From contig NZ_JAODMP010000011.1 of assembly GCF_025464835.1 (NCBI RefSeq), positions 1 through 54,435 of the forward strand: a DNA stretch of 54,435 bases, written 5' to 3'. The stretch's first letter is position 1, and each line of letters begins with the position of its first letter. Both the position numbers and the translations under genes were made by a program. Source of the DNA: Mycetocola sp. (lineage in GTDB: Bacteria > Actinomycetota > Actinomycetes > Actinomycetales > Microbacteriaceae). Below, in pieces: positions 29,516 to 54,264 of this stretch. The notes beneath the pieces are model-generated. The model did not search any database, had not been told where the DNA came from, and saw only the letters and a list, made by a program, of their open reading frames with translations.

Positions 29516-29618
29516 GGTGGGTCTTTCGCTGCATAACGGGCGATTCGAGCGCACGGGTGGGCCGCGAACCGGGTGATGGCATCAGTCTGGAAGCCGGGGG
29601 CGCCATTCCCAACGCGTA

Positions 29619-29633
29619 TTCCACTGAGTGGAA
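29619..29633. promoter_or_regulatory. IclR-type operator in front of pcaHGBL
   Basis: TTCCAC-TGA-GTGGAA is a perfect 15-bp interrupted palindrome, similar in form to TGGAA/TTCCA sites of IclR-family proteins. It lies 103 bases before pcaH and only five bases past the iclR stop. TAGTAT overlaps one side and might be part of a promoter. Confidence 0.6.
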
Positions 29634-29638
29634 GAATA

Positions 29639-36826: not shown

Positions 36827-36909
36827 CTAAATCTCATTCCTTTTGCTTGTGGTGTGGCCGTGGAGGCCACCGTTCGTGTTGTCGATCCTCAGATCGGATG
36901 CCAGAGCCG

Positions 36910-37185
36910 TTAGGCGGCGGGCGTCCCGAAGACGAAGACGACGATCCAGCCGAACAACTGGTCAAGGCCGTACACCAGAGCCATCATGATCACGACGAAC
37001 ACGAGAACGACGCCGGTGTAGCTGAACAGCTCTTTTCGGGTCGGTGTGACGACCTTCTTGAGCTCAGCGATGACCTGCTTCAGGAACAGGATGATCCCGG
37101 CAAAGGGTCCGCGCTTGGCCGCACGGTCCTTCTTTGCTGCTGCGACGATCTCCTCGTTCGGTTCGTCGATCACGTTTCGGGCCAC
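36910..37185 (-). CDS. secE: Preprotein translocase subunit SecE
   Basis: 91-residue single-span SecE of the SecYEG channel. A charged cytoplasmic N-terminus is followed by the amphipathic helix FLKQVIAELKKVVTPTRKEL, which is the family signature, and one membrane helix (YTGVVLVFVVIMMALVYGLD). The GTG at 37185 is taken as the start because the next residues match actinobacterial SecE; an in-frame start at 37212 would run close to the tRNA gene. It lies 51 bases downstream of tRNA-Trp. Confidence 0.95.
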   Translation of the reverse strand: MARNVIDEPNEEIVAAAKKDRAAKRGPFAGIILFLKQVIAELKKVVTPTRKELFSYTGVVLVFVVIMMALVYGLDQLFGWIVVFVFGTPAA

Positions 37186-37235
37186 CTGGTTACACCTTTC
37201 GTGTGTCGGCACTTCATGAATTCACTACCGACGCG

Positions 37236-37308
37236 CAGGGCGGACAGGACTCGAACCTGCAACCTGCGGTTTTGGAGACCGCTGCTCTACCAATTGAGCC
37301 ACCGCCCT
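37236..37308 (-). tRNA. tRNA-Trp (CCA anticodon)
   Basis: 73-base cloverleaf. Acceptor stem AGGGCGG pairs with CCGCCCT, discriminator G; D arm with GGCTCAATTGGTAGAGC; anticodon stem GCGGT with loop containing CCA; T arm GCAGGTTCGAGTCCTGT. The 3' CCA is not encoded. It precedes secE, as in other actinobacteria. Confidence 0.96.
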
Positions 37309-39259: not shown

Positions 39260-39531
39260 ATGCCGCCCGGCCGCAACCACCCCTCCTGTGAAACCCTGGC
39301 GGAGGTGATGGCCAGGGAAGACAAGGTCCGCACAGAGGACGACCCACCGGCGTGTGGAAGGTCATGGGCAGCTGGAAGATCTGGTACCTCACCCTCATCT
39401 GCTTCTGCCTCCAGATCGCGGTTCACGGCACCACCTTCTACCTGCCGGAGCAGGCCTCCGGCCTGATCGGGCAGGACGTCGGCTGCCAGGTCGGACTCAT
39501 CTCCGCCGTCCCGTGGCTCGTTGGCCTGTTC
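39260..39531 (+). pseudogene. MFS transporter fragment with frameshift
   Basis: ETLAEVMAREDKVRTEDDPP in one frame continues, after a shift near 39350, as VWKVMGSWKIWYLTLICFCL and IAVHGTTFYLPEQASGL, a membrane segment typical of MFS anion:cation symporters. The reading stops resembling MFS after LVGLF near 39531. Both N- and C-terminal parts are missing. The surrounding bases from 39005 to 39674 contain only short frames with no recognisable product. The fragment abuts the glucan locus and may mark a recombination junction. Confidence 0.55.
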
Positions 39532-39674
39532 AACGGTCCGCGTTCGCTCGGAAGGGAGCGCGTTGAACGTGGCTGGGAGCATACTTCCACCATGAGCGAT
39601 GACGCTGCTTCGTTCGACACACTGAATTGCTCGGAGTGTCCCTGCGAGTTGACGTCGCGGCACAGAGGAACACC

Positions 39675-42197
39675 CTAACTTCGTGAGTCCGCTCTGCCAC
39701 ACGGGCTCCTCTCCCGCGAGTTCCTGAGAATCTCCCCTTTCAGTGCGGGCAGCGCCAGGACGAGCTGCAAGACGGTTCGGGCAGTGCGCTGGACCTCACC
39801 GAGGGTGATGCCGTCCGGGCGGGCGAGCGAATCTAGCAGGGACGATGCCGCTGAGGCGTCAAAATCGCCGTTGACGTGGTCGAACCATCCGCCAGGCATG
39901 AAGACGTCGACCTGCGCGCGGACCCGGTAGGCGTCGTCGGCCAAAGCCGGAAAGTCCGGGTCGCCGGCACGCTGCATCCACCAGTCGGTGATCACCGTTC
40001 CCTCAAAGCCCCACTCCTCGCGAAGGATCGTCGTGCATAGTTCGTCGTTATAGTGCGACCACACGCCGTTGATCTTGTTGTACGACGTCATGAGGGTGTA
40101 CGGGCGCGCCTGGGCGAGGCAGATCTGAAACCCTCGCAGGTAGATCTCTCGCAGAGCCCGCTCCGAGACCCTCGAGTCGTTGACATTCCGGTTGGTCTCC
40201 TGGTTGTTACACGCGAAGTGTTTCGGACAGGCCGCCACTCCCGCTTCCTGGACGCCAGCCACGATTGCGGCCGCGACGAGCCCGGTGACCAGCGGGTCCT
40301 CGGAGAAGTACTCGAAGTTCCGCCCGCACAGAGGGTCACGATGGATGTTCATCCCCGGGCTGAGCAGCACGTGGGTGCCTTTGCGGACCATCTCCGCACC
40401 ATGGCGCGCCGCAAGTCGACGCACAAGCGGGGTGTTCCAGGTCGAGGCGAGTGCCGCCCCGCACGGTAGGAGCGAAGCATAAGCCGACAGCCGAATACCT
40501 GAGGGGCCGTCCGTCGTCGTAATGGGAGGCACACCCTTGGCGCGCAGCGACGCGGTGATGCCGCCGAACACGCCAGCGTTTCCCGGCGTCCCGAGCGGGC
40601 TGTTCATGATTACGTCACCTCGGGTTAGCGCTTCCAGTTCCTCATGGGAGAGCTGGGCTACGAACTCGTTGAGCGTCGCTGTTCCTTCGGACACGTCGAC
40701 CAGAGTGACGCCCTGGCCACCGGTCGGCTCCAGCGCCGGAACCCGGCGCGCCTGGAGCCGCTCGCGACGCGAGACCTCACGCGTGGGCACGTCCTGCCAA
40801 CCGATGACGGCGCGACCGGCGTCATCGCGGTCGAGAATCATCCGTTGGAAGGGGTGAGCGGCGGCCGGTGCGCACGCCTCGGTCAGCTGTTCGACGACGC
40901 GCAGTTCGCGGAGCGTGAACGTGGCGACCTCGGTCGCCGCGCGCACGTCGGTGCCTGCGAAGACCGTGTAAACACCCGCCTCAAGGACGTAGGCGGACCG
41001 GTGGCCGGTCACCCCCGAGTCGTCGTAAGAGGCCAGAGAGGCGATCGGGAAGGTCAAGTGCAAGGACTCGTTCTCGCCCGGGGCCAGCCGTCGCGACTTC
41101 GCGAAGGACGCCAGCGTCCGGGCAGGCTTGCCGAGCTTGCCGTCCGGTGCCTGGACGTACACCTGGATGACCTCAGCGCCCGGGTGCTCCGTCCCGGCGT
41201 TGCTCACGCGAGCGGTCACCGTGACCTCCTCGCCGTCGACGTGGGCCGTGGGCACCATATCGAGCTTGGAGTACCCGAGGCCGAACCCGAAGGGGAAGAG
41301 TACCGTGTCGGGGGCGAAGGTTTCGAAGTACCGGTAGCCGACGTAAATGTCCTCCGCGTAGTTGTTGTGCTCGAGTCCGCCGAAGTTCACCGCGCTCGGG
41401 TAGTCGGTGTAGTGGCGTGCGATGGTGTCGGTGAGCCGGCCACCAGGCACCTGCGCCCCGGTCAGCACGTCCGCGATGGCGCGCGCGCCCTCCATGCCGC
41501 CCTGCCAGGCGTAGAGCACCGAGGAGATTGCTTCGCCGTACTCGTCCAGCCACGCGAGATCGATGATGTTCCCGCAGTCGAGCACGATGACGGTGCTCGT
41601 GAAGGTTGAGGTGACCGCGTCCAGCAGGCCCTTCTCGGCGTCCGTGAGGTAGTAGCTGCCTTGGGTCAGGGTGTTCTCTCGCGCCTCCCCTGCGGCGCGC
41701 CCCAGGACGATTACGGCGACGTCCGCCCGGGTTGCGGCGGCCCGAGCGGTGCCGGCGTCCAGGGGCATCTCCTCGAAGTAGCGCGGCCAGTTACCCCAGG
41801 TGCCCTCGTCGGGCGAGTTCTCCTCGCACCAGCGGGTGTAGGTCGCGGCGAGTTCTGCGTCGACCGAGACCTGACCGCCGTCGCGCAGTGCGTCGAGAAG
41901 ATTCCAGGAGTACGGGGCGTTGACGTCCCCACCTGAGCCGTAGCCGACCGCGAAGTAATCGATCTGGACCCGTCCGAAGAGCGCGACGCGCGATCCTCCG
42001 CGCAGCGGCAGGGTCCCGTCGTTGCGGAGCAGGACCGCCCCATCGGCTGCGGACTCACGGCACAGCGCGGCGAGCTCCGGATCAACGAAGGTGTCTGTGT
42101 CGATCAGGCTCGTGGACGCCTGCGCCAGCTCCTGCTCACCTGCCGCAAGCGACGGGGCGGGGCTGGCCGACGGCGAATTCACCAGACGATTTTCCAT
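39675..42197 (-). CDS. GH3 beta-glucosidase with circularly permuted domains
   Basis: 840-residue glycoside hydrolase family 3. The domain order is reversed: the alpha/beta sandwich (VALFGRVQIDYFAVGYGSGG to LDCGNIIDLAWLDEY) and the Fn3-like domain (VTVTARVSNAGTEHPGAEVI) come first, and the TIM barrel comes last (GIRLSAYAS; CPKHFACNNQETNRN; the KHF-x(5)-N motif). The nucleophile is Asp738 in GTVITDWW. No signal peptide, hence cytoplasmic. In Listeria a GH3 next to 1,2-beta-oligoglucan phosphorylase is sophorose-specific, so sophorose is the best guess. The ATG at 42197 stands two bases after the stop of the GH94 gene. It is the last gene of the operon. Confidence 0.9.
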   Translation of the reverse strand: MENRLVNSPSASPAPSLAAGEQELAQASTSLIDTDTFVDPELAALCRESAADGAVLLRNDGTLPLRGGSRVALFGRVQIDYFAVGYGSGGDVNAPYSWNLLDALRDGGQVSVDAELAATYTRWCEENSPDEGTWGNWPRYFEEMPLDAGTARAAATRADVAVIVLGRAAGEARENTLTQGSYYLTDAEKGLLDAVTSTFTSTVIVLDCGNIIDLAWLDEYGEAISSVLYAWQGGMEGARAIADVLTGAQVPGGRLTDTIARHYTDYPSAVNFGGLEHNNYAEDIYVGYRYFETFAPDTVLFPFGFGLGYSKLDMVPTAHVDGEEVTVTARVSNAGTEHPGAEVIQVYVQAPDGKLGKPARTLASFAKSRRLAPGENESLHLTFPIASLASYDDSGVTGHRSAYVLEAGVYTVFAGTDVRAATEVATFTLRELRVVEQLTEACAPAAAHPFQRMILDRDDAGRAVIGWQDVPTREVSRRERLQARRVPALEPTGGQGVTLVDVSEGTATLNEFVAQLSHEELEALTRGDVIMNSPLGTPGNAGVFGGITASLRAKGVPPITTTDGPSGIRLSAYASLLPCGAALASTWNTPLVRRLAARHGAEMVRKGTHVLLSPGMNIHRDPLCGRNFEYFSEDPLVTGLVAAAIVAGVQEAGVAACPKHFACNNQETNRNVNDSRVSERALREIYLRGFQICLAQARPYTLMTSYNKINGVWSHYNDELCTTILREEWGFEGTVITDWWMQRAGDPDFPALADDAYRVRAQVDVFMPGGWFDHVNGDFDASAASSLLDSLARPDGITLGEVQRTARTVLQLVLALPALKGEILRNSRERSPCGRADSRS

Positions 42198-42199
42198 GG

Positions 42200-45100
42200 T
42201 CAGGCGTCGAGCGTGCTGCGGTCGACGCCGACGTGGACATCGAGTACCGAAATGCCGACAAGGTCGGCGACCGCGAGGGACAGACCGCCACGGCGGTAGT
42301 GCGCCGTCGTCTCGACCCCGGCGAGGGGCGCTCCGTCGGCCATCACGTGGACGCCCGAACTGCCGGGCTCGACGTGAAAACGCACCGTGCGACGCTCGCC
42401 GGCAAGGTCGATGGTGATCGTGAGGCCGTCGTCCTCGAGGGCGAGGACCGGGTCGATGACCACCGCGCCGGCCTGCTCGACGAGGCCGAGCGCTCCCTGC
42501 ACCAGCTGGCGCAGGTAGATGCCCGGGCCGCTCGAGTAAACGCGCCATCCGCCCTTGACCCCGACCGTGCCGTCCCGCAGCCGGTCGAAATTGGCGGCAG
42601 CGTCGTATCGGTCGCTGAAGGCCGCGTCGGAGGAAGAGTAGTAGCAGTTGCGCTGGCGCGGAATGCTCGTGCTCAGTCGCTCGAACTGGCCGACCGGGCT
42701 GATCCTGAGCAGCTCGGTGACGAGCCGCTCACGGCCCAGCGTCGCGAGGGCCTGCGTGTAGCGGATGTGGGCATGGGTGTACATGAGCCCAACCTCACGG
42801 CCGAAATTCGCCGCCTGTTCCCCACGCCGAAAGAATCGCGTCTGTCCGTCGTGGAAGGGCGCGGGCCGGTCCATGAGGCGGACGCCGTCGGGGAAGTGCA
42901 GGTGCTCCTCGACGAGGTTTTCGTGACGCTGCACCTGCTCCGGGGTGAACAGCCCGGCGATGATCGACCGGGTCATCGGAATGAGCCGGTACGACAGTCC
43001 GGTCCGGTCGTCGCTGGGATGCAGCACGGGCCACGGCCCCTCGGGGGTGAAGACGACGTAGCCGGCGAGCACATCGTCGATGACGAGACGCTCGGTGAAC
43101 TCGGCCGCGATCGTCGTCGCCTCGGCCAGGAGGTCGGCTGCGAGCGCGTCGTGCGCGGTCCCGCGCAGCGCAGCACCGAGGGTGCTGGCCGCCTGGAACA
43201 GCAGGGCGATGGTCCAGGCGGAGGCCATCTCACGGCTCATCGAGGCCTGGGCAGGCTGGAGGGTGTCGTCCCAGTCGCCCTCACCGTAGGAGAGCAGCTC
43301 GGTCCCGGGGGCGCGGTGGCTGCGGATGTAATCCAGGGAGGCGCGCACGTGGTCAGCGATGGGCACCGCCACGGTGCCCGGGCGGCGCAGCTCGCCGTCC
43401 CAGAACGGCACCTCCACGTCGAGAATCGTCGCGTCGCCGGTCGCAGCCAGGTACTCCCCGAGCGCCATGAGGGGCCAGACGACGACGTCGCCGTGGGCCT
43501 CGTCGGAATACCGCTCGCGGTAGGCGTCGAACATGAACCACTGCGGCAGCGTGCCGTCGGGGATCTGCTGGGCGAACACCCGGCGGACGATGTCGCCCGC
43601 CGTGTCGAAGTGACCGAACGCGAGGTTGAGCTCGAGCGGTCCCTGGCAGACATCACGCGTGCCCCAGGCTGCGCCTGAGTACTGCTCGAGGCCGTGCGGC
43701 ACGAGAAAGTGCACCAGTGCGTTCTGCGTGAACCACGGCAGCAGAAGGTTGGCCTCGGCGAGGCGACCATCACCCTCGACCCGCAGGTTGCGCGTGAAGT
43801 CGGCGATGTAACCTCGGTGCGCCGCGAGCTCGGCGTCGACGTCAAGCGGGCTGATAAGCACGGCCTCGGCGCTGGCGAGGGCGTCCGCCGCGCCGCCGAG
43901 ATCACCCGAGAGCACGAGCGAGGCCGATGTGGTCGCGTCGAAAGCGACCGTCGTCAGGCTCGTGCCGCGGGAGCGGCCATCGGCGAAAAGAATCGCGTCG
44001 TCGCCGAGGCGCCCTGCGGCGCTTGCGAGCACGTAGACGAGATCGGGACAGTGCTCGGCGACGTCGGTCCCGGCGTCCGCGGCATAGACAAGCCCGCGGC
44101 CGCCGAGGGCTCGGCTAGCGGTCCAGGACTGCTCGCCGAGCTCGATGTCCGCCGTGAAGATGATGTCGAGCGGCTGCTCGGAATGGATACGAACCTCGAT
44201 GGCACGGCCGTCGTGGCTCGCCGTCGTGCGCACCTCGATACGACCGTCCTCGGTCGCGTAGATCCAGCGGACGCCGCCCAGGTCAAGGACGAGGGCCGAG
44301 GGCACGCCGAGCAGCTGCCACCGGTCACCCGTGCGCACGAGCGCCCGCACCCCTGAGGAACGCAGCAGGTTGAGGTGGTTGCGCTGGACGGAGATGAAGC
44401 GGTTGGCGGTCGTGTTCCCGACGACGACGTGCGAGGCGAAGACCCCATAGGCGTAGGCCGTCGCGGAGAGGATGTTATCGTTCGGGGTTACGTCGGAGCC
44501 GGCTTTGAGGACGTGCCCGTGCGGTCGCTCAACAACGAGCTCCTTCGCGCGGCTGACGACGTGAGTGGCCTCAGGCGTGAAGAAGGACAATAGGCGCCCG
44601 GCATCGTCGCGCTCGGGCTGGAGGACCCGGGACGACGCATCGGATCTCGCCGACGCAGTCCCGAGCTCAGTGAGCTCGGGTTCCGAGAGGTCGCGGCCAG
44701 ACAGCAGCGGGGCCGATACCAGCAGGGAGCGCGCCGACGCGGGTGACTCGGCAGCCGGGGCAGCATCGACTGTGGCTGAGCGTGCGCTATCGGTGGCGAG
44801 CCGAAGCGCGCGATCGAACAGCCCGGGCACCGCGTCGAGGGCGTCACCGAGTTCTCCGCGGTAGTCCGCGACGACGGCTGTCACCGCGTGCACGGTGCGC
44901 GGGGCGGCGAGATCGAGCTCGGGGCCGAGCAGCACCGGCAAAGCGAACTCGTACTGATAGGTGAGCGAGTCCCAGTCAGGCACGTCCAGGCTGTGGGCGC
45001 GGCCGTCGACCTTCGCGTCGAGCCCGTAGAAGGAGAACCCGTCGGTGAGGTGCGCGCGTGCCCCCTCGACGAGAGCGGTCACCGCGAGTGGCAGCACTGG

Positions 45101-45709
45101 CGCGGTCGCCATGGTTTGCCGGCTCGCGATGACGGCCCCCGCCCGTGCGTCGTTGAGCACGTGGTGCACGACGTACTGACTCACGTATGGCTCGTTGTTG
45201 ACGGCCGTCGAGACCGGTACAAGGGCCAGGTCCTGGGCGAAGACGACGTCGTAGACGGCGTCCGCCGACGCGGGCCCAACGGCCTCGAGGTCCACCCGCC
45301 ACACCCAGACGTCACCGTGCGGGTCGAGGGTCAGGGTCACCGCGTAGCGAGCCCCGAGCGTCTGACCTGACCAGCGGGCGCCGGCCGGCTCCGCAGTGAA
45401 GTCCCCGGCCGAGCGTCCGCCGACGAGCGGCACCCCCTCGACCATGCGAACACCCGAGGCGTCCAGGCCGTGACGGCGTAGGAAGACGCCGCCGACCATG
45501 GCGTCGTGCCCGCTCGGCACATACTGGTTGACCAGCATCGACTCCCCGTGAGTGATGGCGCGCACGTCACCGGCCGCCGACAGCTCGATACGGGTGGTCC
45601 CCGCCTCGAGCACCGCCGCCGGCGAAAGTCTCATGGGGCGGCGCTCGGCAGGCAGGACAGTGGCTACCGCAGGATCAGTGGCGGACGGATGGGCGGTGTG
45701 CGTAATCAC
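42200..45709 (-). CDS. GH94 glycoside phosphorylase, probably 1,2-beta-oligoglucan phosphorylase
   Basis: 1169-residue, leaderless-signal-free cytoplasmic protein. N-terminal beta-sandwich domains to about residue 690 and an (alpha/alpha)6 barrel after it. The segments IPDGTLPQWFMFDAYRERYS, HGDVVVWPLMALGEYLAATG and LSYGEGDWDDTLQP are those I associate with 1,2-beta-oligoglucan phosphorylases; the acid residue would be Asp812 of DWDD. The size (over 1100 residues) also fits that group and exceeds cellobiose and chitobiose phosphorylases (about 800). It would split sophoro-oligosaccharides with phosphate into alpha-glucose 1-phosphate. The GTG at 45709 follows GAGGAA. Alternative: another GH94 specificity. 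Confidence 0.78.
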   Translation of the reverse strand: MITHTAHPSATDPAVATVLPAERRPMRLSPAAVLEAGTTRIELSAAGDVRAITHGESMLVNQYVPSGHDAMVGGVFLRRHGLDASGVRMVEGVPLVGGRSAGDFTAEPAGARWSGQTLGARYAVTLTLDPHGDVWVWRVDLEAVGPASADAVYDVVFAQDLALVPVSTAVNNEPYVSQYVVHHVLNDARAGAVIASRQTMATAPVLPLAVTALVEGARAHLTDGFSFYGLDAKVDGRAHSLDVPDWDSLTYQYEFALPVLLGPELDLAAPRTVHAVTAVVADYRGELGDALDAVPGLFDRALRLATDSARSATVDAAPAAESPASARSLLVSAPLLSGRDLSEPELTELGTASARSDASSRVLQPERDDAGRLLSFFTPEATHVVSRAKELVVERPHGHVLKAGSDVTPNDNILSATAYAYGVFASHVVVGNTTANRFISVQRNHLNLLRSSGVRALVRTGDRWQLLGVPSALVLDLGGVRWIYATEDGRIEVRTTASHDGRAIEVRIHSEQPLDIIFTADIELGEQSWTASRALGGRGLVYAADAGTDVAEHCPDLVYVLASAAGRLGDDAILFADGRSRGTSLTTVAFDATTSASLVLSGDLGGAADALASAEAVLISPLDVDAELAAHRGYIADFTRNLRVEGDGRLAEANLLLPWFTQNALVHFLVPHGLEQYSGAAWGTRDVCQGPLELNLAFGHFDTAGDIVRRVFAQQIPDGTLPQWFMFDAYRERYSDEAHGDVVVWPLMALGEYLAATGDATILDVEVPFWDGELRRPGTVAVPIADHVRASLDYIRSHRAPGTELLSYGEGDWDDTLQPAQASMSREMASAWTIALLFQAASTLGAALRGTAHDALAADLLAEATTIAAEFTERLVIDDVLAGYVVFTPEGPWPVLHPSDDRTGLSYRLIPMTRSIIAGLFTPEQVQRHENLVEEHLHFPDGVRLMDRPAPFHDGQTRFFRRGEQAANFGREVGLMYTHAHIRYTQALATLGRERLVTELLRISPVGQFERLSTSIPRQRNCYYSSSDAAFSDRYDAAANFDRLRDGTVGVKGGWRVYSSGPGIYLRQLVQGALGLVEQAGAVVIDPVLALEDDGLTITIDLAGERRTVRFHVEPGSSGVHVMADGAPLAGVETTAHYRRGGLSLAVADLVGISVLDVHVGVDRSTLDA

Positions 45710-45769
45710 GGTTATTTCCTCAGTACAGGCAGGTGCGGGTCGAGCGGGGACGGACGCGAGCGGGCAGGC

Positions 45770-46939
45770 TCAGACGGCGAGCGCATTGGCCCGCGCGACG
45801 TCGCCGAGCCAACGAGCGCTGGGCTTGACGGTCCGCACGAAGGTGGTGCGGTTCACGCTGACGAGCCCGAAGGTCGGTCTGTAGGAACCCCACTCGTAGT
45901 TGTCGAGCAGGCTCCAGTACAGGAAGCCCTCCACCTGGATCCCATCGCTGATCGCCCGGTGCAGGCCCTCGAGCGCGCCCTGTATGTAGGCCACCCGGCG
46001 CGTGTCGTCGTCGGTCGCGATGCCGTTCTCCGTGACGAAGACGGGCACCCCCGGTGCCATCTCGTGAGACAGGCGGATACCGTCCTCGAGGGCACGCGGA
46101 TAGAACTCCCATCCGGTGAGGGTCCGCTCGGCACCGTCGGCGATCGGGAGCGGCCCCTTGGGGCCGATTCTGGTGCGGGTGTAGGCCTGCACACCGACCC
46201 AGTCGTCGCCAGCGGCCATCTCGAGGTACCAGGCGTCACGGTGGTAGCCGTACGCGCGGGCGATGTCCTCGCACCCGGGCTCAGGCTGGAAGTCCTGGGT
46301 GGCGACCGTCCAGCCCGTGCGGAAGTCCCCCGCCTCAGCGAGCACTGCTCGGCTGGCGCGGTGGGCCTCGAGCAGGGTCTGGGCCACGTTGACGTCGGGG
46401 CCTGGCTGGCCGAAGGCCTGCAAAGTCGTGCCCTGACCGTCGCCGCCCGCCATCATCGCGACCATGTTCGGCTCGTTGATGGTGCACACCCACTCCACGC
46501 CCTCGAGGACGGGAAGCACGGTCTTCGTGTAGAAAACGAAACGCTCGACGGCGTCGGGCGCACGCCACCCGCCCTCGTCCTCGAACCACTGCGGGATGGT
46601 GAAGTGGTGCAGCGTGATCATCGGCTCAAGGCCGAATTCCCGGGCCGTGAGGACCATGCGGCGGTAGTGGGCGAGCTCTGCCTGGGAGACGAAGCCTTTC
46701 TCGGGCTCGATGCGAGCCCACTCGATCGAGAAACGGTACATGCTCAGGCCCGCGTCGACGAGCACCTGCATGTCCTCACGGAAGCGGTGGTAGCTGTCGC
46801 AGGCGTCGAGGCTCGGCTCAGAGATCGTGGAGTCGACGAGGTGCTCCCGGCGCCACCAGTCGGAATTGACGTTGTTGCCCTCGATCTGATGGGCGGCGGT
46901 CGCGGATCCCCAACGGAATCCTTCGGGGAAGTGCAGCAT
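45770..46939 (-). CDS. GH1 beta-glucosidase
   Basis: 389-residue family 1 hydrolase with an intact active site: acid/base Glu156 in CTINEPNMV and nucleophile Glu304 in VFVTENGIA, sugar-binding WGSATAAHQIEG at the N-terminus and ITLHHFTIPQW. It is shorter than the common 440-480 residues, lacking some loops. No signal peptide. It would hydrolyse short beta-glucosides inside the cell, complementing GH94 and GH3. The ATG at 46939 is preceded by GAGG at five bases; the open frame upstream is not conserved. 132 bases separate it from the ATPase gene. Confidence 0.9.
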   Translation of the reverse strand: MLHFPEGFRWGSATAAHQIEGNNVNSDWWRREHLVDSTISEPSLDACDSYHRFREDMQVLVDAGLSMYRFSIEWARIEPEKGFVSQAELAHYRRMVLTAREFGLEPMITLHHFTIPQWFEDEGGWRAPDAVERFVFYTKTVLPVLEGVEWVCTINEPNMVAMMAGGDGQGTTLQAFGQPGPDVNVAQTLLEAHRASRAVLAEAGDFRTGWTVATQDFQPEPGCEDIARAYGYHRDAWYLEMAAGDDWVGVQAYTRTRIGPKGPLPIADGAERTLTGWEFYPRALEDGIRLSHEMAPGVPVFVTENGIATDDDTRRVAYIQGALEGLHRAISDGIQVEGFLYWSLLDNYEWGSYRPTFGLVSVNRTTFVRTVKPSARWLGDVARANALAV

Positions 46940-47071
46940 GGGTACCTCGCTTGGTTGTTGGGGATGGGTGTGGTCAGGACGTGGTGTGCGCGGCGCGCCC
47001 GGCGACCGTGGCCCGGAAGGAGCCGAGCAGGTAGCGGACACGGTCGCGCGTCCCGCCCTTTCCGGTGCCGG

Positions 47072-48805
47072 TCATCGCCTGGCCCCGGCGCGATGCGGCT
47101 GCGGGATCGCATCTAGCAGCTCCATCGTGTAGGGGTCCTCGGGGAACCGGAGCACCTGGGCGGTCAGTCCTGACTCCACGACCCGGCCCTGGTTGAGGAC
47201 CATGATCTGGTCGGTCACCAGCCGGGCGGAGAGCAGGTCATGGGTGATGTAAAGCATTGAGACGCCGAACGTGACCCGCAGATCATCCAGCAGCGCGAGC
47301 ACGCCGGCACGCAAGGACACGTCGAGCATCGAGACGGGCTCGTCCGCGATGATCACCTGCGGGTCACAGGCGAGCGCCCGCGCGATGACCACGCGCTGAC
47401 GCTGCCCGCCGGAGAGCTCGTGCGGGAGCTTCGCCGCGAACTGCTCGACGGGCGTCAGGCCGACGGTCTCAAGGAGCTCGAGGACGCGGGTGCGAGCCGC
47501 GCCGCCGTGCAGTCCGGTGTAGTTGAGGACGGGGCGCATGAGCGCATACTCGACCGTATGCAGCGGGTTCAGCGCGGAGTACGGGTCCTGGAAGACCATC
47601 TGCACCTCCCGGCGCAGCCCCCGCAGCCCCTTGCGCCGCAGCGTGTCGACTCGGGCCTCACCGAAGTGGATCGTGCCGGACGTCGGACGCTCGATGCCGG
47701 TGACCAGCTTGGCGAGGGTCGACTTGCCCGAGCCGCTCGCTCCGACCAGGGCCATGGACTGGCCCTGCTCGAGCGTGAAGGAAACGCCGTCGACGGCCGT
47801 TACCGCGTCCTGGCCGCGGCGCGGTCGCGGGTAGACCTTGGTGACGCCGTCGACCACGATCGCCGACGCCTCGGGCCGCCCCGCCCGACGCCGGGCTGGT
47901 GCGGATGGCGTACCGGTCGCCGTCTCGCCGCGCTCCGGCGAGACGGCGGCGACGACGGAGCTGTGCCCGGTGGTCGAGATTGTCGAGCCACGCACGACGA
48001 GCCCCGGCACTTGGACGACCTCAGCGCGTGGGTCGGCGTAGTGGCCGAGCAACATCTGCGTGTACTGGTGCTGCGGGGCCTGCAGGATCTGCTGCGAGGT
48101 CCCGTCCTCGACGATGACGCCCTCGCTCATGACCATGACCCGTGACGTCGACTCCAGCACGATGCCGAGGTCGTGGCTGATCAGTAGTGCGGTGAAGTTC
48201 TCGGACTTCTGCAGGTCCCGAATGGTTCCCATGACGGCGTGCTGGACGAGGACGTCGAGCGCGGTGGTCGGCTCGTCGAAGACCATGAGCTGGGGCTCGA
48301 GCGACAGTGCAAGGGCGATCGAGACGCGTTGTCGCATGCCGCCCGAGAGTTCACCCGGGAAGCGGTCGAGGACAGTGCGAGGCAGCTCGACCTTCTCGAG
48401 GAGATCGTAGGCTCGCGCCAGCCGCTTGGTCTTGGGTACGTGCCCGTGCGCGGCGAAGATGTCGCCGAAGTGCTTGCGAATTGAGCGCACTGGGTTGAGC
48501 GCGTTCATGCCCGACTGCAGCACCATCGCGAAGCCGCCGCGGCGCTGCTTGCGTAGCTCCTCCTCTTCCATGCTCGCGATGTCGCGACCGTCGAAGAGGA
48601 TCGTGCCCTCTGAGATGCGCGCCGGCGCCTTGGCGAGGCGGGTGACCGCGAAGCCGAGGGTCGACTTGCCGGAGCCGGACTCCCCCACGAGGCCGACGAA
48701 CTCGCCACGCTCGAGGGAGAAGGAGGCTTTCCTGACCGCGTAGGTCGGCTCGGCGCCGCGCGGTTCGTAGACGACCGACAGGCCGTTGACTTCGAGCAGG
48801 CTCAT
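47072..48805 (-). CDS. Fused double ATPase of an oligopeptide/oligosaccharide ABC transporter (DppD-DppF)
   Basis: 577 residues containing two full nucleotide-binding domains. First: Walker A GESGSGKST, signature LSGGMRQR, Walker B LMVFDEPTTALD. Second (from about residue 285): Walker A GASGSGKST, signature LSGGQRQR, Walker B VIIADEPVSMLD. Both are intact. In most Opp/Dpp systems these are two proteins, so one chain replaces DppD and DppF, a fusion that is common in actinobacteria. The ATG at 48805 overlaps the permease stop as ATGA. It powers uptake by the adjacent permeases. Confidence 0.9.
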   Translation of the reverse strand: MSLLEVNGLSVVYEPRGAEPTYAVRKASFSLERGEFVGLVGESGSGKSTLGFAVTRLAKAPARISEGTILFDGRDIASMEEEELRKQRRGGFAMVLQSGMNALNPVRSIRKHFGDIFAAHGHVPKTKRLARAYDLLEKVELPRTVLDRFPGELSGGMRQRVSIALALSLEPQLMVFDEPTTALDVLVQHAVMGTIRDLQKSENFTALLISHDLGIVLESTSRVMVMSEGVIVEDGTSQQILQAPQHQYTQMLLGHYADPRAEVVQVPGLVVRGSTISTTGHSSVVAAVSPERGETATGTPSAPARRRAGRPEASAIVVDGVTKVYPRPRRGQDAVTAVDGVSFTLEQGQSMALVGASGSGKSTLAKLVTGIERPTSGTIHFGEARVDTLRRKGLRGLRREVQMVFQDPYSALNPLHTVEYALMRPVLNYTGLHGGAARTRVLELLETVGLTPVEQFAAKLPHELSGGQRQRVVIARALACDPQVIIADEPVSMLDVSLRAGVLALLDDLRVTFGVSMLYITHDLLSARLVTDQIMVLNQGRVVESGLTAQVLRFPEDPYTMELLDAIPQPHRAGARR

Positions 48806-49767
48806 CGTCCCGATCCTTCCCGTAGGCGCGGGTTGGACAGGCCGTCCACCCCGAAATTGATGAGGGTGAGCGAGGTGGCGAGCAGCGCGATGCACAGGCC
48901 GGGTGCGAAAAGCAGCACCCACTGGCCGGTGAGCAGTGCGTTGGAGTTCGACGCCCAGAAAAGCATGGATCCCCAGCTCACGGTCGTCGTGTCGCCGATC
49001 CCGAGGAAGGACAAACCCGACTCGGCAAGGATCGCGGACGTCGCCGCACCGAAGAAGCTGCCGGTGATGAGCGAGGTCATGTTTGGCAGGATCTCGTGGA
49101 AGACGATGCGTGCCGCGCCGTCTCCGGCGAACTGCGCCGCAGTGATGAAGTCACGACCGCGGATGGACTGCGTCTGGGAGCGGAGCACACGGGCCCCGTA
49201 CGCCCAGCCGGTGAGCACGACGACGAAGATGATCATCGTCATGCCGCCGTTCTGCAGGTAGGCCGCAATGACGATCATGAGCGGCAGTCCCGGGATGACG
49301 AGCACCAGGTTGACGACGAAGTTGATGACATCGGCGATCGGGCCACGGATATAGCCCCACGAAAGACCGACGACGACGGCGATGAGCGTCGAGAGGAACC
49401 CAGCGATGAAACCGACGAGCACCGAGATCCGGGCGCCGAAGACGATCTGCGAGAAGACGTCCTCGCCGGCGGCCGTGGTGCCGAACCAGTGGCTGCCGGA
49501 GGGAGCCTCGTTGCGGCCGAAGCCGTTCTCGCTCGCACCGTAGGGCGCGATGAGCGGCGCGAAAATTGCGAGAGCCACGAAGGCGAGGAGCAGGACCACG
49601 CCGATACGGGCCTTCTTATTGCTCCAGATCGTCGCGGCACCACGCGAAAGGACCCGCAGCGACGAGGCGGGCCCGTGCGGCTCGGGCACCACGGTGTCAG
49701 CTCCGCGCGGGGGCTGGTGGGGCGGGGTCGAGCCTGTGGGCTCGGGGAGGTTCACTGCAACAGTCAT
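48802..49767 (-). CDS. Dpp/Opp-type ABC transporter permease (DppC type)
   Basis: 321-residue permease. A Pro-rich cytoplasmic tail of about 40 residues precedes helix 1 (IGVVLLLAFVALAIFAPLIAPY), followed by the DppC-typical GSHWFGTTAAGEDVFSQIVFGA and a core of five helices. The EAA-like loop reads RDFITAAQFAGDGAARIVFHEILPN. Its start overlaps the upstream permease stop (ATGA) and its stop overlaps the ATPase start (ATGA), so the three membrane-complex genes are coupled. Confidence 0.92.
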   Translation of the reverse strand: MTVAVNLPEPTGSTPPHQPPRGADTVVPEPHGPASSLRVLSRGAATIWSNKKARIGVVLLLAFVALAIFAPLIAPYGASENGFGRNEAPSGSHWFGTTAAGEDVFSQIVFGARISVLVGFIAGFLSTLIAVVVGLSWGYIRGPIADVINFVVNLVLVIPGLPLMIVIAAYLQNGGMTMIIFVVVLTGWAYGARVLRSQTQSIRGRDFITAAQFAGDGAARIVFHEILPNMTSLITGSFFGAATSAILAESGLSFLGIGDTTTVSWGSMLFWASNSNALLTGQWVLLFAPGLCIALLATSLTLINFGVDGLSNPRLREGSGR

Positions 49768-50744
49768 CGGCGGGTCCTCGGATCCAAGAGTCCGTATAAG
49801 AGGTCAACCAGGAAGTTCGCGAGCAGCATGCTGATCGTGAGCATGAGGAAGAGCGCCTGCATGAGCGGGAAGTCCTGGTTCGTGACGGCGTTGTAGAGCA
49901 GATAGCCGACACCGGGGTAGTTGAAGACCTGCTCGACGAGCAGCGAGCCACCGACCACACCACCGAGCGACAAGCCGAAGCCCGTGAGATTCGGGAGGAT
50001 CGCGTTGCGGGCCGCGTACTTGACGGCCACGGTGCGGCTGCGCAAACCGTTCGCCTCGGCGAATGTCACGTAGTCGTCGCCGAGGGTATTGATCATGTTG
50101 TTGCGCATCCCGAGTATCCAGCCACCGACCGAGGTGATGAGGATGGTCAGGGCGGGTAGCCAGGCGTGCCCGATCACGTCGCTGATGAAGGCGAGGCTGA
50201 GGTTGGGGGTCGACTCGAGGCCGTAGGCGCCCGACGTCGGGAACCACTTGAGCTGGTAGCCGAGGAAGAAGACGACCAGCAGGGCGGTCCAGAAGTATGG
50301 GAACGCCGAGGTGAACGTACCACCGAGCGTGGGTAGCGTGTCGAGCCACGTACCGCGCTTCCAGGCGGCGAGGACACCGAGCAGGGTTCCGACGACGAAC
50401 GCGATGATCGTCACGAGACCGACCATGACGAGTGTCCACGGGAGCGCATTCATGACGAGCGTGGAAACGCTCTGCGGGAAGAACGTGTAGGAGACCCCGA
50501 AGTCGAGGCGCGACACGTTGCCGAGGTACTGGACGTACTGCGACCAGGCGTCGCCAGTCGGCACGCCGAGCTGAGCCTCGATGGCTGCTCGGGTCGCGGG
50601 GTCAACGGGGCCGTTCTGCGCCAGCTTCGCGATGGCTGCGTCAGCCGGTGTGCCGGGCATGAGCCGCGGCAGCAGGAAGTTCAGTGTGATCGCGGCCCAC
50701 GCGGTCAGGAGCAGCAAGCCAAGCTTGCGCAGGAGATACCACAC
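49764..50744 (-). CDS. Dpp/Opp-type ABC transporter permease (DppB type)
   Basis: 326-residue permease beginning with helix LLRKLGLLLLTAWAAITLNF and the DppB-typical LPRLMPGTPADA. The core helices follow, and the docking loop reads DDYVTFAEANGLRSRTVAVKYAARNAILPN. In Opp-family transporters that serve oligosaccharides (for example cellobiose systems of Thermotoga) the same architecture is used, consistent with its place beside three glycosidase/phosphorylase genes. The GTG at 50744 has only a weak ribosome-binding site; 95 bases separate it from the binding-protein gene. Confidence 0.92.
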   Translation of the reverse strand: MWYLLRKLGLLLLTAWAAITLNFLLPRLMPGTPADAAIAKLAQNGPVDPATRAAIEAQLGVPTGDAWSQYVQYLGNVSRLDFGVSYTFFPQSVSTLVMNALPWTLVMVGLVTIIAFVVGTLLGVLAAWKRGTWLDTLPTLGGTFTSAFPYFWTALLVVFFLGYQLKWFPTSGAYGLESTPNLSLAFISDVIGHAWLPALTILITSVGGWILGMRNNMINTLGDDYVTFAEANGLRSRTVAVKYAARNAILPNLTGFGLSLGGVVGGSLLVEQVFNYPGVGYLLYNAVTNQDFPLMQALFLMLTISMLLANFLVDLLYGLLDPRTRR

Positions 50745-50839
50745 AGGGTGCTCGCCTTCGTCGGGAGATTGCGGATAGGGCGGAGCTGAGCGAGGTGCGC
50801 GGGCTGACGGGCACCTCGCTCAGCCGGAGGGGAAACCTC

Positions 50840-52501
50840 TCAGCCGTCCGCCTTCGTGATGGTGGTCAGGATGACGAGCGCTGCCGAGGTGTACGGCGTC
50901 GGCGTCATGTAGGGGTTGTCGGCGTCGGGCCACCCGGTGAAGCTCTTATCGGAGAAGAGACCCCAGAGGCCTGCGTAGTAAACCGAGATGACCGGAACGT
51001 CGTTGTACATGACCTCCTGGAGCTCGCCGGCGAGCTCCTTCTGGCGGGCTTCGTCGACGGTCGTGCGGAACTCGGTGAGCATCGCGTCGACCTCCGGGTT
51101 GGAGTACCGCTGGTAGTTCGACGACGCAGAGGTGCCGACCGGCTGAAGGAAGTCGGAGCTCAGCAGGTTGTAGTAGCCCTGGTAGACCGAGCCATTGCCG
51201 CCGAAGGACGTCATCGCGACGTCGAAATCGCCGTTCTGGACCGCCTGGAAGTAGGCGGCGGGCTGCGGCTGATTGATCTTCACGTCGATGCCGATTGCGG
51301 TGTACTGCTTCTGGATCTCCTGGACTGCGCGCAGCCAGTCGGTCCAGCCGTTCGGCGTGGTGATCGTCATCGTGGCCTGGTTGCCGTCCGCATCGACGAG
51401 CTTGCCGTCCTGGATGGTGTAGCCGGCCTCGGCGAAGGCCGCCTCGGCGGCGGCGGTGTCCTGCGTGACCATGCCCTCGTCGGGGATCGCGTCGGTGAGC
51501 CACTCGGCCTGCGTCGGCAGCAGGAGACCCTGCTGCCCGGCGGCATCGACGGTGCCCTCCGAGGCGTTGTCAGCGATGCTGTCGCGCTCGAGCGCGAGGG
51601 ACATGCCCTTGCGGAAGTTCGGGTCGTCGTATGGAGCCTTTGTGAGGTTCGGCGCGATGGCGACCGTGCCACCCGCGGGGAACCAGAACTGGTTGCCCTC
51701 ATCGGCGGCGACCCAGGTGTTCTCGACGTCCGACATGAAGGCGTAGGCCCAGTCATAACCGTTGTTGACGATGTCCAGTTGCGAGTTCGCGGCGGGGAGC
51801 ACGAGCTGCTCGGCGGCGACCTTGTCGGCCTGCCAGTAGTCCGGGTTCTTCTCGAGCTTGTACTGGTTCGCGTTGAAGTCACCGAGCGTATACGGCCCGG
51901 TGCCGATCGGGCTCTCGTTGGTGAAGGTGGCCGGGTCCGCGACGTCGGCCCAGAGGTGCTCCGCGACGATCGGGACGGCGAGCACGATGATCGGCGCGGA
52001 AGAGTCCTCGGCGTGGAGGGTGAAGGTGACCTTCTGGCCCTCGGCATTCACGGACTCGAGACGCGACCAGACACCGGTGCTGTCGAGGGCAGGGAACTCC
52101 TTGAGGAGGTTGTATGTGAAGACGACGTCGTCAGCGGTGAACTCTTCGCCGTCGCTCCAGGTGACTCCCTCGCGGATGTCCGAGACGATCGTCTTGGCGT
52201 CGGGCTGCGTGTAGTTCGTCTGCAGGAAGTTCGTCGACTTGCCGTCGAGCGCGTTCACGACCATGAGGGGCTCGTTGATGATGGTCGCGGTGGTGCGCTT
52301 CTCGATCACAAACGGGTTGAAGTTCTTGACGAACGTCGGCGAACCGTTGTCTGCGGCGAGCATGAGTGAGCTCGATCCTGCCGTTCCGGTCTTGGATCCG
52401 GGCTCGGGAGCCGCACAGGCGCTGAGCGACAGGACTGCGACGAGCCCCAGCCCCAGAGCGGAAGTCAGGCGCGTGCGCGTCCGACGGGTGCCATCGATCA
52501 T
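50840..52501 (-). CDS. Family-5 substrate-binding lipoprotein, predicted sophoro-oligosaccharide binder
   Basis: 553-residue SBP_bac_5 protein (DppA/OppA fold). Signal peptide ends in lipobox LSAC with Cys29. Family segments: IREGVTWSDGEEFTADDVVF, SPIGTGPYTLGDFNANQYKL and NPDYWQADKVAAEQL. Such proteins bind peptides, nickel or oligosaccharides; only the operon context argues for glucan oligosaccharides. The ATG at 52501 follows AAGGAGAAG. It is the first structural gene after the regulator and lies downstream of a perfect palindromic operator. Confidence 0.88.
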   Translation of the reverse strand: MIDGTRRTRTRLTSALGLGLVAVLSLSACAAPEPGSKTGTAGSSSLMLAADNGSPTFVKNFNPFVIEKRTTATIINEPLMVVNALDGKSTNFLQTNYTQPDAKTIVSDIREGVTWSDGEEFTADDVVFTYNLLKEFPALDSTGVWSRLESVNAEGQKVTFTLHAEDSSAPIIVLAVPIVAEHLWADVADPATFTNESPIGTGPYTLGDFNANQYKLEKNPDYWQADKVAAEQLVLPAANSQLDIVNNGYDWAYAFMSDVENTWVAADEGNQFWFPAGGTVAIAPNLTKAPYDDPNFRKGMSLALERDSIADNASEGTVDAAGQQGLLLPTQAEWLTDAIPDEGMVTQDTAAAEAAFAEAGYTIQDGKLVDADGNQATMTITTPNGWTDWLRAVQEIQKQYTAIGIDVKINQPQPAAYFQAVQNGDFDVAMTSFGGNGSVYQGYYNLLSSDFLQPVGTSASSNYQRYSNPEVDAMLTEFRTTVDEARQKELAGELQEVMYNDVPVISVYYAGLWGLFSDKSFTGWPDADNPYMTPTPYTSAALVILTTITKADG

Positions 52502-52591
52502 GGACGTCTTCTCCTTAGTGTCATCTTCGTCACCTCGGCCGGGCGGTGCGCATCCATGCGAATCACGTCGGCAAGTTGTGTTGTCTAGCTT

Positions 52592-52609
52592 AATGTATGC
52601 GCATACATT
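52592..52609. promoter_or_regulatory. LacI operator of the glucan locus
   Basis: AATGTATGCGCATACATT is a perfect 18-bp palindrome with a central CG, the form preferred by LacI proteins. It covers the -10 element and part of the spacer of the predicted promoter. Confidence 0.78.
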
Positions 52610-52620
52610 CCATTGCGCAA
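52592..52620 (-). promoter_or_regulatory. Predicted promoter of the glucan-transporter operon
   Basis: Minus strand TTGCGC (52620-52615), 17-base spacer, TACATT (52597-52592). The operator lies inside it, so repressor and polymerase would compete directly. Confidence 0.55.
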
Positions 52621-52679
52621 CTCCTGATTCGACACCAGGCGGGAGCCGGCGGGATGGACGGTGACGATGACTGCCTGGG

Positions 52680-53771
52680 TCAGGGGAGGCAACCACAGCT
52701 CTCGCGCAGCAGAACCGTGACCGGCAAGGTCCTGGTCTGCGGTGGCATCAGCGGGTCGCCCAGTCTGCGCAGCAGGGTGTCCACCGCCGCGCGCCCCAGC
52801 TCACGCATGGGCTGACGCACGGTCGTGATCCGCGGTCGTGACATCTCCGAGGCGTCGATGCCGTCGAAGCCGGTGATGATGACGTCCTCGGGCACCCGCA
52901 GCTCTGCGGCAAGCAGGGCGTCGAGGATTCCAAGGGCGGTCTGGTCGTTCGAACACATGAGCGCCCGCGGGACCGGACCCGCCTCGACCAAACGACGGCC
53001 GAGCATCCGGCCGTGACCACGGGTGAAGTCACCTCGCAGGAGCGGCTCCGACGGCGCCTCAATCCCCTCGGCCAGCAGCCCCATTCGGAACCCCTCGAAG
53101 CGGTCGCGATCGTCCGGGGAGTCGGCCGGGCCTCCGACGAAGGCCACGTCGCGGACTCCGTGCACGTCGACGACGTGCTTGGTCATCGCCTCCATCCCGG
53201 CGACGTTGTCGGTGCCGATGTGATCGTAGTCGTCCCCTGCGCGCGGACCGGCGATGACCACAACCGGGATGCGCCGGGCGATGTGCGCGAGCAGCCCCTC
53301 GGGCACCGTCTGCGAGAGCGTGACCATGCCATCGACACGACCAGCGAGGTTGTCGAAGATCTCATTGCCCCGTTCCCCCCGCGCCACCGCGATAGTCACA
53401 GCCATGCCGTGCCGCCACGCCTCGATCTCCGTGCCAAGCATTACCTCGCTGATGTAGAGGTTCCCGCTCGGTTCGACGTCCTCGGGCGGGTCGAGTCGCG
53501 CGATTACCTTGCCATCCGCATACGCGATCGGGGCCGGCCCACCGTCGATCCCGTCGAAGTCGGGAAAGCACAACCCGATCGCACCGGCCCGTCGCGCTGC
53601 CAAGCTGCGAGCGCTTCCGCTCGGCACATAGCCCAAATCCAGGACGGCAGCGTCCACGCGGTCCTTGGTCGCCTGCGACACCTTGTGCGGCTTACGGAAC
53701 ACACGTGACACGGTCGCGATCGACACCCCAGCGAGATCCGCGACGTCGTAGACAGTGGGCGCCTTCGGCAT
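52680..53771 (-). CDS. LacI-family regulator of the glucan locus
   Basis: 363-residue repressor. Helix-turn-helix TVYDVADLAGVSIATVSRVF at residues 6-25, hinge ending SARSLAARRAG, then an effector domain with an insert around residues 75-105 (DGIDGGPAPIAYADGKVIARL) not usual for the family. It ends with LLRESCGCLP. The ATG at 53771 follows GGAGG. It is upstream of and co-directional with the binding-protein gene, with the palindromic operator at 52592-52609 in between. Likely induced by an imported oligosaccharide or a breakdown product. Confidence 0.9.
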   Translation of the reverse strand: MPKAPTVYDVADLAGVSIATVSRVFRKPHKVSQATKDRVDAAVLDLGYVPSGSARSLAARRAGAIGLCFPDFDGIDGGPAPIAYADGKVIARLDPPEDVEPSGNLYISEVMLGTEIEAWRHGMAVTIAVARGERGNEIFDNLAGRVDGMVTLSQTVPEGLLAHIARRIPVVVIAGPRAGDDYDHIGTDNVAGMEAMTKHVVDVHGVRDVAFVGGPADSPDDRDRFEGFRMGLLAEGIEAPSEPLLRGDFTRGHGRMLGRRLVEAGPVPRALMCSNDQTALGILDALLAAELRVPEDVIITGFDGIDASEMSRPRITTVRQPMRELGRAAVDTLLRRLGDPLMPPQTRTLPVTVLLRESCGCLP

Positions 53772-54111
53772 CAGATCCTCCGTCTCATCACGGCTCCGAT
53801 ATTACGACACGCCTGCGCGCCCCGACTGCCTGCGTGCTCGTTCGTGGCAGACATGCTCTCAGAACGGGTCATGGATCTTACGGCACGGGATGGCGCATCG
53901 GAAGAGGAGTTTGCGCTTTCTCGGCAACGTGTTCCGCCTCAACTTCGGGGCCAATACGGTTGCGCGTCGACAGGCAGATCCTCGGGCGTCCATGGAACAA
54001 GGCGGCCGAACCTAGGCCTTACTTTCCTCTCTGACGCGTCCGGCGACGAGCGGCCCCGCTCGGTTTTTCGGTCACACATCATCATCGACTGAGGCCGCTA
54101 CATGTGCGTTC
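53772..54111. other. Non-coding or decayed stretch left of the VOC remnant
   Basis: Short overlapping frames only (for example one starting MADMLSERVMDLTARDGASE), without ribosome-binding sites or recognisable families. Together with the following remnant it looks like decayed DNA at the right end of the insertion. Confidence 0.4.
54047..54068 (+). terminator. Intrinsic terminator, plus strand
   Basis: CGAGCGG-CC-CCGCTCG followed by GTTTTT. It would end a plus-strand transcript, but no intact plus-strand gene precedes it, so it is probably left from a lost gene. Confidence 0.6.
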
Positions 54112-54264
54112 CTGCGCCGAGCCTGTCGACTTGCTGCGGACCTTCAGCGCCTTGCTGGGTTGGACCACGGCTTCATGTACTCCCGTGACCTCGAGGATCC
54201 GGGCGGGAACATCCTCGAGCTCGGCCACATGGATCCGGTCGCTGCGGAGAAAGGCCAGACGTCT
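54112..54264 (+). pseudogene. VOC/glyoxalase-family remnant
   Basis: The frame gives LDHGFMYSRDLEDPGGNILE then LGHMDPVAAEKG. FMYSRDLEDPGGN followed by DPVAA is the C-terminal signature of actinobacterial glyoxalase/bleomycin-resistance-like VOC proteins. The N-terminal half is absent and the frame runs on to the next gene without a stop. A truncated relic at the edge of the insertion. Confidence 0.55.

Follow-up and report, generated by a model that had tools for sequence, protein, structure and literature searches.

A predicted beta-1,2-glucan operon of Mycetocola pairs a 1,2-beta-oligoglucan phosphorylase with an Opp/Dpp-family importer

Introduction

The gene cluster treated here lies on contig NZ_JAODMP010000011.1 of Mycetocola sp. 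(assembly GCF_025464835.1) and encodes a regulator, an ABC importer and three predicted glucan-degrading enzymes; the entire contig of 54,435 nucleotides was analysed and is referred to as the window. Its closest described counterparts are found in Listeria innocua and Streptomyces griseus. The lin1838-lin1843 locus of L. innocua likewise has a LacI-type regulator, an importer, a 1,2-beta-oligoglucan phosphorylase (SOGP) and a beta-glucosidase of glycoside hydrolase (GH) family 3 (PMC3960220, PMC12369401). Its binding protein Lin1841 is of the sugar type, whereas the importer encoded in the window is a member of the Opp/Dpp family. We take Lin1841 to belong to the CUT1 class. The Listeria GH3, Lin1840, is also a different GH3, reaching about 120 bits with the window protein as against 697 bits for the best match of the latter, and, unlike the Listeria locus, the window has a domain-permuted GH3 and an added GH1. 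The second counterpart, SGR_2422-2427 of S. griseus, contains a GH1 of the window type, SGR_2426, with residues Gln229 and Trp291; it further comprises a binding protein homologous to Lin1841 and a GH193 endo-glucanase, and no SOGP is named for it in the text consulted (PMC12369401). Taken singly, SOGP, this type of GH1, permuted GH3 enzymes and SBP_bac_5 proteins that bind sugars are all known.

Beta-1,2-glucans have roles in symbiosis, in infection and in osmotic control (PMC12369401). Descriptions of binding proteins or importers for these glucans are few, and the window offers a testable importer from an unexpected family. In our assessment the cluster is very probably a catabolic operon that is complete in itself, was transferred horizontally and serves the use of short linear beta-1,2-glucans (sophoro-oligosaccharides). 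The gene identities, the conservation of residues, the gene order, an operator-like site and an empty site in a related genome are read directly from the sequence.

Gene arrangement and the predicted GH94 phosphorylase

Eight co-directional open reading frames (ORFs) occupy the minus strand from about 39675 to 53771 and encode, in this order, a LacI regulator, an SBP_bac_5 lipoprotein, DppB, DppC, a fused DppDF, GH1, GH94 and GH3. An earlier sequence-only reading had placed eight co-directional genes here, and all of these ORFs are present with matching Pfam identities. The genes for DppB and DppC and those for DppC and DppDF overlap by a few bases, and the GH3 gene starts two bases past the stop of the GH94 gene, an arrangement as found in operons. 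That the same gene order is found again in other genera argues against a chance assembly. Likely true starts were chosen by homology and overlap and differ from those of the longest ORFs for the binding protein (52501), DppDF (48805), GH1 (46939) and GH3 (42197). In a simple hydropathy check none of the three enzymes (GH1, GH94, GH3) showed a stretch resembling a signal peptide; a lipobox is present on the binding protein.

The largest enzyme of the cluster is the GH94 protein (42200-45709, minus strand; 1169 aa, GTG start). It matches SOGP_N and SOGP_2nd above the Pfam cut-offs, among these PF21958 with 174.5 bits against a cut-off of 27, whereas SOGP_4th (E 0.00038) and Glyco_hydro_94 (E 0.00053) stay below theirs; NCBIfam gave no match for this protein. 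Among solved structures 5h3z comes first with 601 bits and is followed at a great distance by a cyclic glucan synthase (51 bits). 5h3z, called 'uncharacterized protein' in the structure table, is presumably LpSOGP. The residues named in the LpSOGP report indeed land on the right letters of the 5h3z chain after a shift by one (PMC5309861).

For comparison across species, one genome per species was scanned with the GH94 as bait, which gave 56 loci. Ligand-binding and catalytic positions of LpSOGP (PMC5309861) were mapped by eye on the 5h3z alignment and counted over 52 aligned GH94 rows, of which LpSOGP itself is not one. Fifteen of the 16 positions are identical in the window protein, the exception being G623, which is Ser, and D815 is the equivalent of the catalytic Asp. 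Thirteen of the 16 are invariant in all 52 rows; N138 and G623 vary, and the position of Y141 is Tyr in 48 rows, Phe in three and a gap in one. The placement of Y1004 and S1005 assumes the absence of gaps, the printed LpSOGP alignment having ended near residue 1000. Domains, solved match and conserved subsite residues support the prediction that the window GH94 is an SOGP, as had originally been proposed: the SOGP-only domains are there, LpSOGP is far ahead of other solved proteins, and a grouping with cellobiose, laminaribiose or cellodextrin phosphorylases was not seen, in a tree that was built without characterised cellobiose-type enzymes. The shortest substrate of SOGP has three beta-1,2-linked glucose units; sophorose is not used (PMC5309861).

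Two predicted beta-glucosidases of different families

The GH1 protein (45770-46939, minus strand; Pfam Glyco_hydro_1) has the S. griseus enzyme SGR_2426 (8kap) as its top solved match with 479 bits, while the next different enzyme, 4r27, reaches 342 bits. SGR_2426 was the first GH1 to be reported as beta-1,2-specific, with Gln229 and Trp291 as residues of subsite +1 (PMC12369401). In the window protein Q249 and W311 correspond to these two residues and M193 to the hydrophobic position 171. The equivalents of Gln229 and Trp291 and both catalytic Glu residues are kept in all 23 GH1 proteins aligned (22 from fetched loci plus that of the window), and position 171 is occupied by Met in 13 and by Ile in ten of them. 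Asn228 of SGR_2426 is replaced by Thr, Cys or Pro in the aligned GH1 proteins and is also not kept in the SGR_2426 homologues described (PMC12369401). Relatives of this GH1 are reported to cluster with the importer genes in several species, some of Bifidobacterium included (PMC12369401). We assign the window GH1 to the SGR_2426 type, with a predicted preference for beta-1,2 linkages. The earlier reading had listed it as an added GH1; its presence stands, but it is not a generic member of the family, rather one of the type first reported as beta-1,2-specific (PMC12369401).

In the GH3 protein (39675-42197, minus strand; 840 aa) the domain order is permuted, since Pfam places Glyco_hydro_3_C ahead of the catalytic Glyco_hydro_3 domain, and the protein yields one long single alignment to 5k6l. 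Among solved structures, 5wug (697 bits) and 5k6l (601 bits) are the closest to it, and we take the latter to be GlyA1. GlyA1 acts broadly on cello- and xylo-oligosaccharides, gentiobiose and sophorose (PMC5104943). A role of the permuted GH3 in a beta-1,2-glucan pathway is plausible, though hardly a specific one.

A proposed pathway for short linear beta-1,2-glucans

From the predicted functions of the genes we infer substrate, activities, transport and repression as follows. The lipoprotein would catch oligosaccharides produced outside the cell, and DppBC together with DppDF would import them. In the cytoplasm, the SOGP would use phosphate to take glucose units off chains of at least three units as glucose 1-phosphate, which could enter metabolism via a phosphohexomutase; the genome holds three matches to PF02878, the phosphohexomutase family. 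The leftover sophorose would be hydrolyzed by GH1, the permuted GH3 or both. LacI may repress the operon at a palindrome over the promoter and would be released, presumably, on binding a beta-1,2-linked sugar.

Neither the SOGP nor the beta-glucosidases can work without a chain end, so that an endo-enzyme has to open cyclic beta-1,2-glucans before they can be used. PF10091 presumably covers the enzymes of the GH144/GH189 type. The original statement that a secreted endo-beta-1,2-glucanase is lacking stands for PF10091 and PF04349 (MdoG, GH186), neither of which has a match anywhere in the genome, and does not extend to GH162 and GH192-194, the actinobacterial GH193 among them, which were not searched. 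The organism most likely lives by taking up linear oligomers that others produce. A 770-aa protein encoded beside GH94 in Sanguibacter inulinus (L008:5984-8296) was considered as an endo-glucanase and rejected, as it has no Pfam match and only weak solved matches to flavoproteins; it has no match in the Mycetocola genome.

The operon might instead serve plant sophorosides of flavonoids or saponins, or mixed short beta-glucosides, with GH1 and GH3 doing most of the work and the SOGP as an accessory. In this connection it is of relevance that BGL167 (4r27), the next different solved relative of the GH1, acts on a saponin, that the solved relative of the permuted GH3 is broad (PMC5104943) and that sophorosides are the main reported form of sophoro-oligosaccharides (PMC12369401). 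We nevertheless regard this explanation as unlikely, because the largest enzyme of the operon needs at least three units and is inactive on sophorose (PMC5309861), so that it would be superfluous there. The constancy of the SOGP across the loci is no argument in this matter, since it was the bait with which they were fetched.

Probable horizontal acquisition of the operon

The segment 38996-54166 of the window is missing at the same place in the sister genome G002, as seen by blastn of the window against the corresponding stretch (L077): the neighbours of window positions 38995 and 54167 are separated by 539 bp there, and about 15.2 kb are absent. In a further genome, G003, about 5.6 kb of other DNA separates the same two flanks, and in the stretch fetched from G001 the right flank was not found. 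Similarity of the window DNA to two Cryobacterium loci (L003 and L004) is limited to 39704-53786, at 87-89%. The window GH94 is 87% identical to that of Cryobacterium and 88% and 83% identical to those of two Sanguibacter, whereas the corresponding values for NusG are 79-80% for Cryobacterium and 54% and 56% for the two Sanguibacter. The empty site, the limits of similarity at the edges and the contrast between GH94 and NusG together argue that the operon moved as a unit, and it looks to have been acquired horizontally, with Mycetocola as the probable recipient.

The empty site alone cannot tell gain from loss, and the cluster might have been present in the ancestor of the genus, with losses in its other members. 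This is very unlikely in view of the distribution of true SOGP, which occurs in one of six genomes of the genus and two of 398 of the family, the Mycetocola genome itself included in both counts (four others gave weak partial matches), and of the GH94 identities to Sanguibacter (88% and 83%), which lie far above those of NusG (54% and 56%), NusG being a single gene. Furthermore, both edges retain fragments of adjacent genes. Near window position 54162 there is the end of a VOC-like gene that is whole in G002 (L077:7458-7934), and positions 39294-39531 hold a piece of an MFS-like gene that is whole in G001 (L078:7999-9369); both names were assigned by eye. No direct repeats of at least ten bases are shared by window positions 39401-39700 and 53701-54200, only one ten-base inverted match, and no mobile-element cause is evident at the operon edges. 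Near the insertion, positions 35840-37308 contain NusG and tRNA-Trp, on a flank that is also conserved among sister genomes.

Distribution of importer types and the GH94 tree

The importer comprises the permeases DppB/OppB (49764-50744; BPD_transp_1, with NCBIfam Opp/Nik B families below their cut-offs) and DppC/OppC (48802-49767; BPD_transp_1 and OppC_N), and a fused DppD-DppF ATPase (47072-48805; two ABC_tran stretches and oligo_HPY), all on the minus strand. It carries the Opp/Dpp markers SBP_bac_5, OppC_N and oligo_HPY in Pfam, and its binding protein shows SBP_bac_5 in place of the CUT1 mark SBP_bac_1. An Opp/Dpp-family importer in the place of a CUT1 transporter had been postulated, and the Pfam markers bear this out. 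When the CUT1 binding protein of locus L018 was used as a query, the best match in the Mycetocola genome was 29% identical over residues 55-223 of 431.

An importer of the Opp type stands beside the GH94 in 19 of the 56 loci (L003-L007, L009-L015, L017, L026, L032, L035, L042, L044 and L051), one of which, L015, has a CUT1 importer too; 18 loci have CUT1 only and 19 have no clear importer. The last group, in which several loci are short contigs and four (L046, L050, L055, L056) show weak CUT1-like permease matches, was left out of the comparison. CUT1 binding proteins (SBP_bac_1) were recognized by Pfam in L018, L019 and L034 and by tblastn in the rest; in L009 and L011 the importer is present in part, the contig being cut. 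The window and L061 also have the Opp-type importer beside GH94. Hosts of the Opp type are Cryobacterium, Sanguibacter, Cellulomonas metagenome-assembled genomes (MAGs), an uncultured Pseudokineococcus, an unplaced actinomycete MAG and Bifidobacterium. By comparison, the SOGP loci of Cellulosimicrobium and Oerskovia (L018 and its kin) combine the SOGP with a GH1 of the same type, 50-53% identical, and differ in having a CUT1-type importer on the strand opposite GH94 (seen by Pfam for L018 and by tblastn for its kin).

The SOGP leaves sophorose (PMC4757417, PMC5309861) and is inactive on it, so a finishing beta-glucosidase is expected in each locus. In fact, all 19 Opp-type loci have one: GH1 in 12, a GH3 of canonical order in six and the permuted GH3 alone in one (L004). 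GH1 and permuted GH3 occur together in L003 and the window, and L003 is the only fetched locus with the full eight-gene set. The earlier suggestion that the combination may not have been described has to be divided accordingly: importer and SOGP recur together in 19 of 56 loci, the complete set is confined to L003 and the window, and no paper joining SOGP with an Opp/Dpp-family importer was found in the open-access literature, figures and most subscription papers being outside this search.

Several loci deviate in layout. In Cryobacterium sp. N22 (L004) and in genome G391 (L061) no GH1 lies between DppDF and GH94 and the permuted GH3 is kept. In Bifidobacterium polysaccharolyticum (L015:15065-19380) the Opp-type operon is followed, after GH94, by a CUT1 importer and a GH1, possibly an intermediate or a double uptake system. 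Sanguibacter gelidistatuariae (L005:13606-22582) has a second Opp-type operon right behind the SOGP operon, with LacI, SBP_bac_5, DppB- and DppC-like proteins, matches to two distinct ATPases and a GH3 that weakly matches PA14. Just upstream of LacI, Sanguibacter loci encode a small protein with a GDSIT motif (L005:1011-1703, L006:1221-1877) that resembles SGNH esterases by eye; an acetyl-esterase-like gene is also reported for the S. griseus cluster (PMC12369401).

The pool for GH94 trees consisted of 58 rows (the 56 loci, L061 and the window; the weak hits L062-L066 were left out). The first tree contained 52 of them, L033, L038, L047, L048, L053 and L058 having been dropped as too short, and the second, under the simpler model LG+G4, 39 of these 52, with distant rows left out. 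On both trees the importer label requires one change among rows with a clear importer; in the first-tree table the Opp label needs three changes when rows lacking a clear importer are counted as other groups. The three Firmicutes outgroup rows of the second tree have CUT1, which suggests that the Opp type is the derived state. A single swap, in which an Opp/Dpp-family importer would have taken over from a CUT1 importer in one actinobacterial SOGP clade, is therefore favoured, not proven, and its direction would be from CUT1 to Opp/Dpp.

A conserved operator-like site

The gene for the LacI-family regulator (52680-53771, minus strand; Pfam LacI and Peripla_BP_3) is separated from the binding-protein gene by a gap that harbours the palindromic, operator-like 18-bp site AATGTATGCGCATACATT (52592-52609). 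It overlaps the promoter-like site of the binding-protein gene, a consensus match TTGCGC - 17 - TACATT (52592-52620, minus strand), the -10 box of which lies inside the operator. When up to three mismatches are allowed, AATGTATGCGCATACATT has no second site anywhere in the genome, and it did not occur in 100 shuffles of the window. A LacI relative adjoins the operon in 17 fetched Opp-type loci, which are all that extend so far (L009, L011 and L061 end before the gap). In these and the window, the operator core is present in 18 of 18 gaps between LacI and binding-protein genes and overlaps a TTG-17/18-TACA promoter-like site in each; the exact core has no match in fetched loci without such a gap. 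In L003-L007 and L010 the LacI gene points the same way as the operon, in the Bifidobacterium loci the opposite way. Position and conservation lead us to predict that LacI binds at AATGTATGCGCATACATT, and the site provides a handle for finding further members. The Bifidobacterium gaps (L012-L015, L017, L026, L035, L042, L044, L051) contain, by eye, a second palindrome-like site around TAGCGCTA and, near the LacI gene and beside the shared operator, a CATACAT motif.

The binding protein and its possible ligand

The substrate-binding lipoprotein (50840-52501, minus strand; 553 aa, lipobox LSAC) was assigned to SBP_bac_5 by Pfam, solved relatives and its N-terminus. Its top solved matches are structures of the Vibrio chitin-oligosaccharide binding protein (8i5j, 1zty; 279 bits), likewise an SBP_bac_5-like glycan binder, followed by Vibrio relatives with peptide names (258-265 bits), which we take to be chitooligosaccharide binders as well. 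Next come 4pft and 1vr5 with general or peptide names (190 bits), the mannoside binder 4pfu (169 bits), 4jsd/2o7i, which have peptide names and are presumably sugar binders (114 bits), and the oligopeptide binder AppA (79 bits). The Vibrio protein, VcCBP, differs in that its ligands are N-acetylglucosamine oligomers, and several of its contact residues are not kept in the window. Of the published contacts, checked by eye on the solved-match alignment, the window protein shares W362 and D364 and has Tyr for W512 (PMC10667598). In the Bifidobacterium binding proteins Tyr stands at the first of these positions and Trp at the last. The pattern suggests that the ligand may be a glycan other than chitin oligomers. 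That the transporter imports peptides or another solute and adjoins the SOGP by accident, as the family names of its subunits and the peptide names of many solved relatives could imply, is most improbable given the linkage in 19 of 56 loci from several genera, the operator and promoter-like site in every one of the 18 gaps and the far better matches to binders of chitin oligosaccharides (279 bits) and mannosides (169 bits) than to AppA (79 bits).

A possibly transferable gene set in Actinobacteria

Taking these results together, we incline, with some reserve, to the view that, in Actinobacteria, an Opp/Dpp importer was turned a single time into one dedicated to beta-1,2-glucans and now spreads horizontally as a plug-in operon that brings along its LacI operator and is rounded off, from lineage to lineage, by GH1, canonical GH3 or permuted GH3. 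Several points count against the proposed operon for short linear beta-1,2-glucans and its importer swap. Many solved relatives of the binding protein bear peptide-binder names given by their depositors, its residues at the VcCBP contacts N408, F410, R435 and F436 are not those of the Vibrio protein (PMC10667598), and its AlphaFold model is too poor for use (mean pLDDT 51.3). The breadth of GlyA1 means that the permuted GH3 points to no single linkage. The loci were fetched with GH94, so the sample covers these importers only beside an SOGP. Finally, the branch between Opp and CUT1 has a support of 90 in the first tree and 80/68 in the second and is starred in neither, and one importer change is found in 82% of 200 bootstrap trees of the second.

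A group of actinobacteria appears to pass round a ready-made gene set for short beta-1,2-glucans, in which the importer has been replaced by one from a peptide-importer family. The distribution suggests that beta-1,2-gluco-oligosaccharides set free by other organisms are taken up by several Actinobacteria, including bifidobacteria; some of these Bifidobacterium species live in the honey-bee gut.

Elsewhere on the Mycetocola contig, positions 28742-30475 encode a protocatechuate-type dioxygenase and an IclR regulator, which suggests a pathway for aromatic acids.

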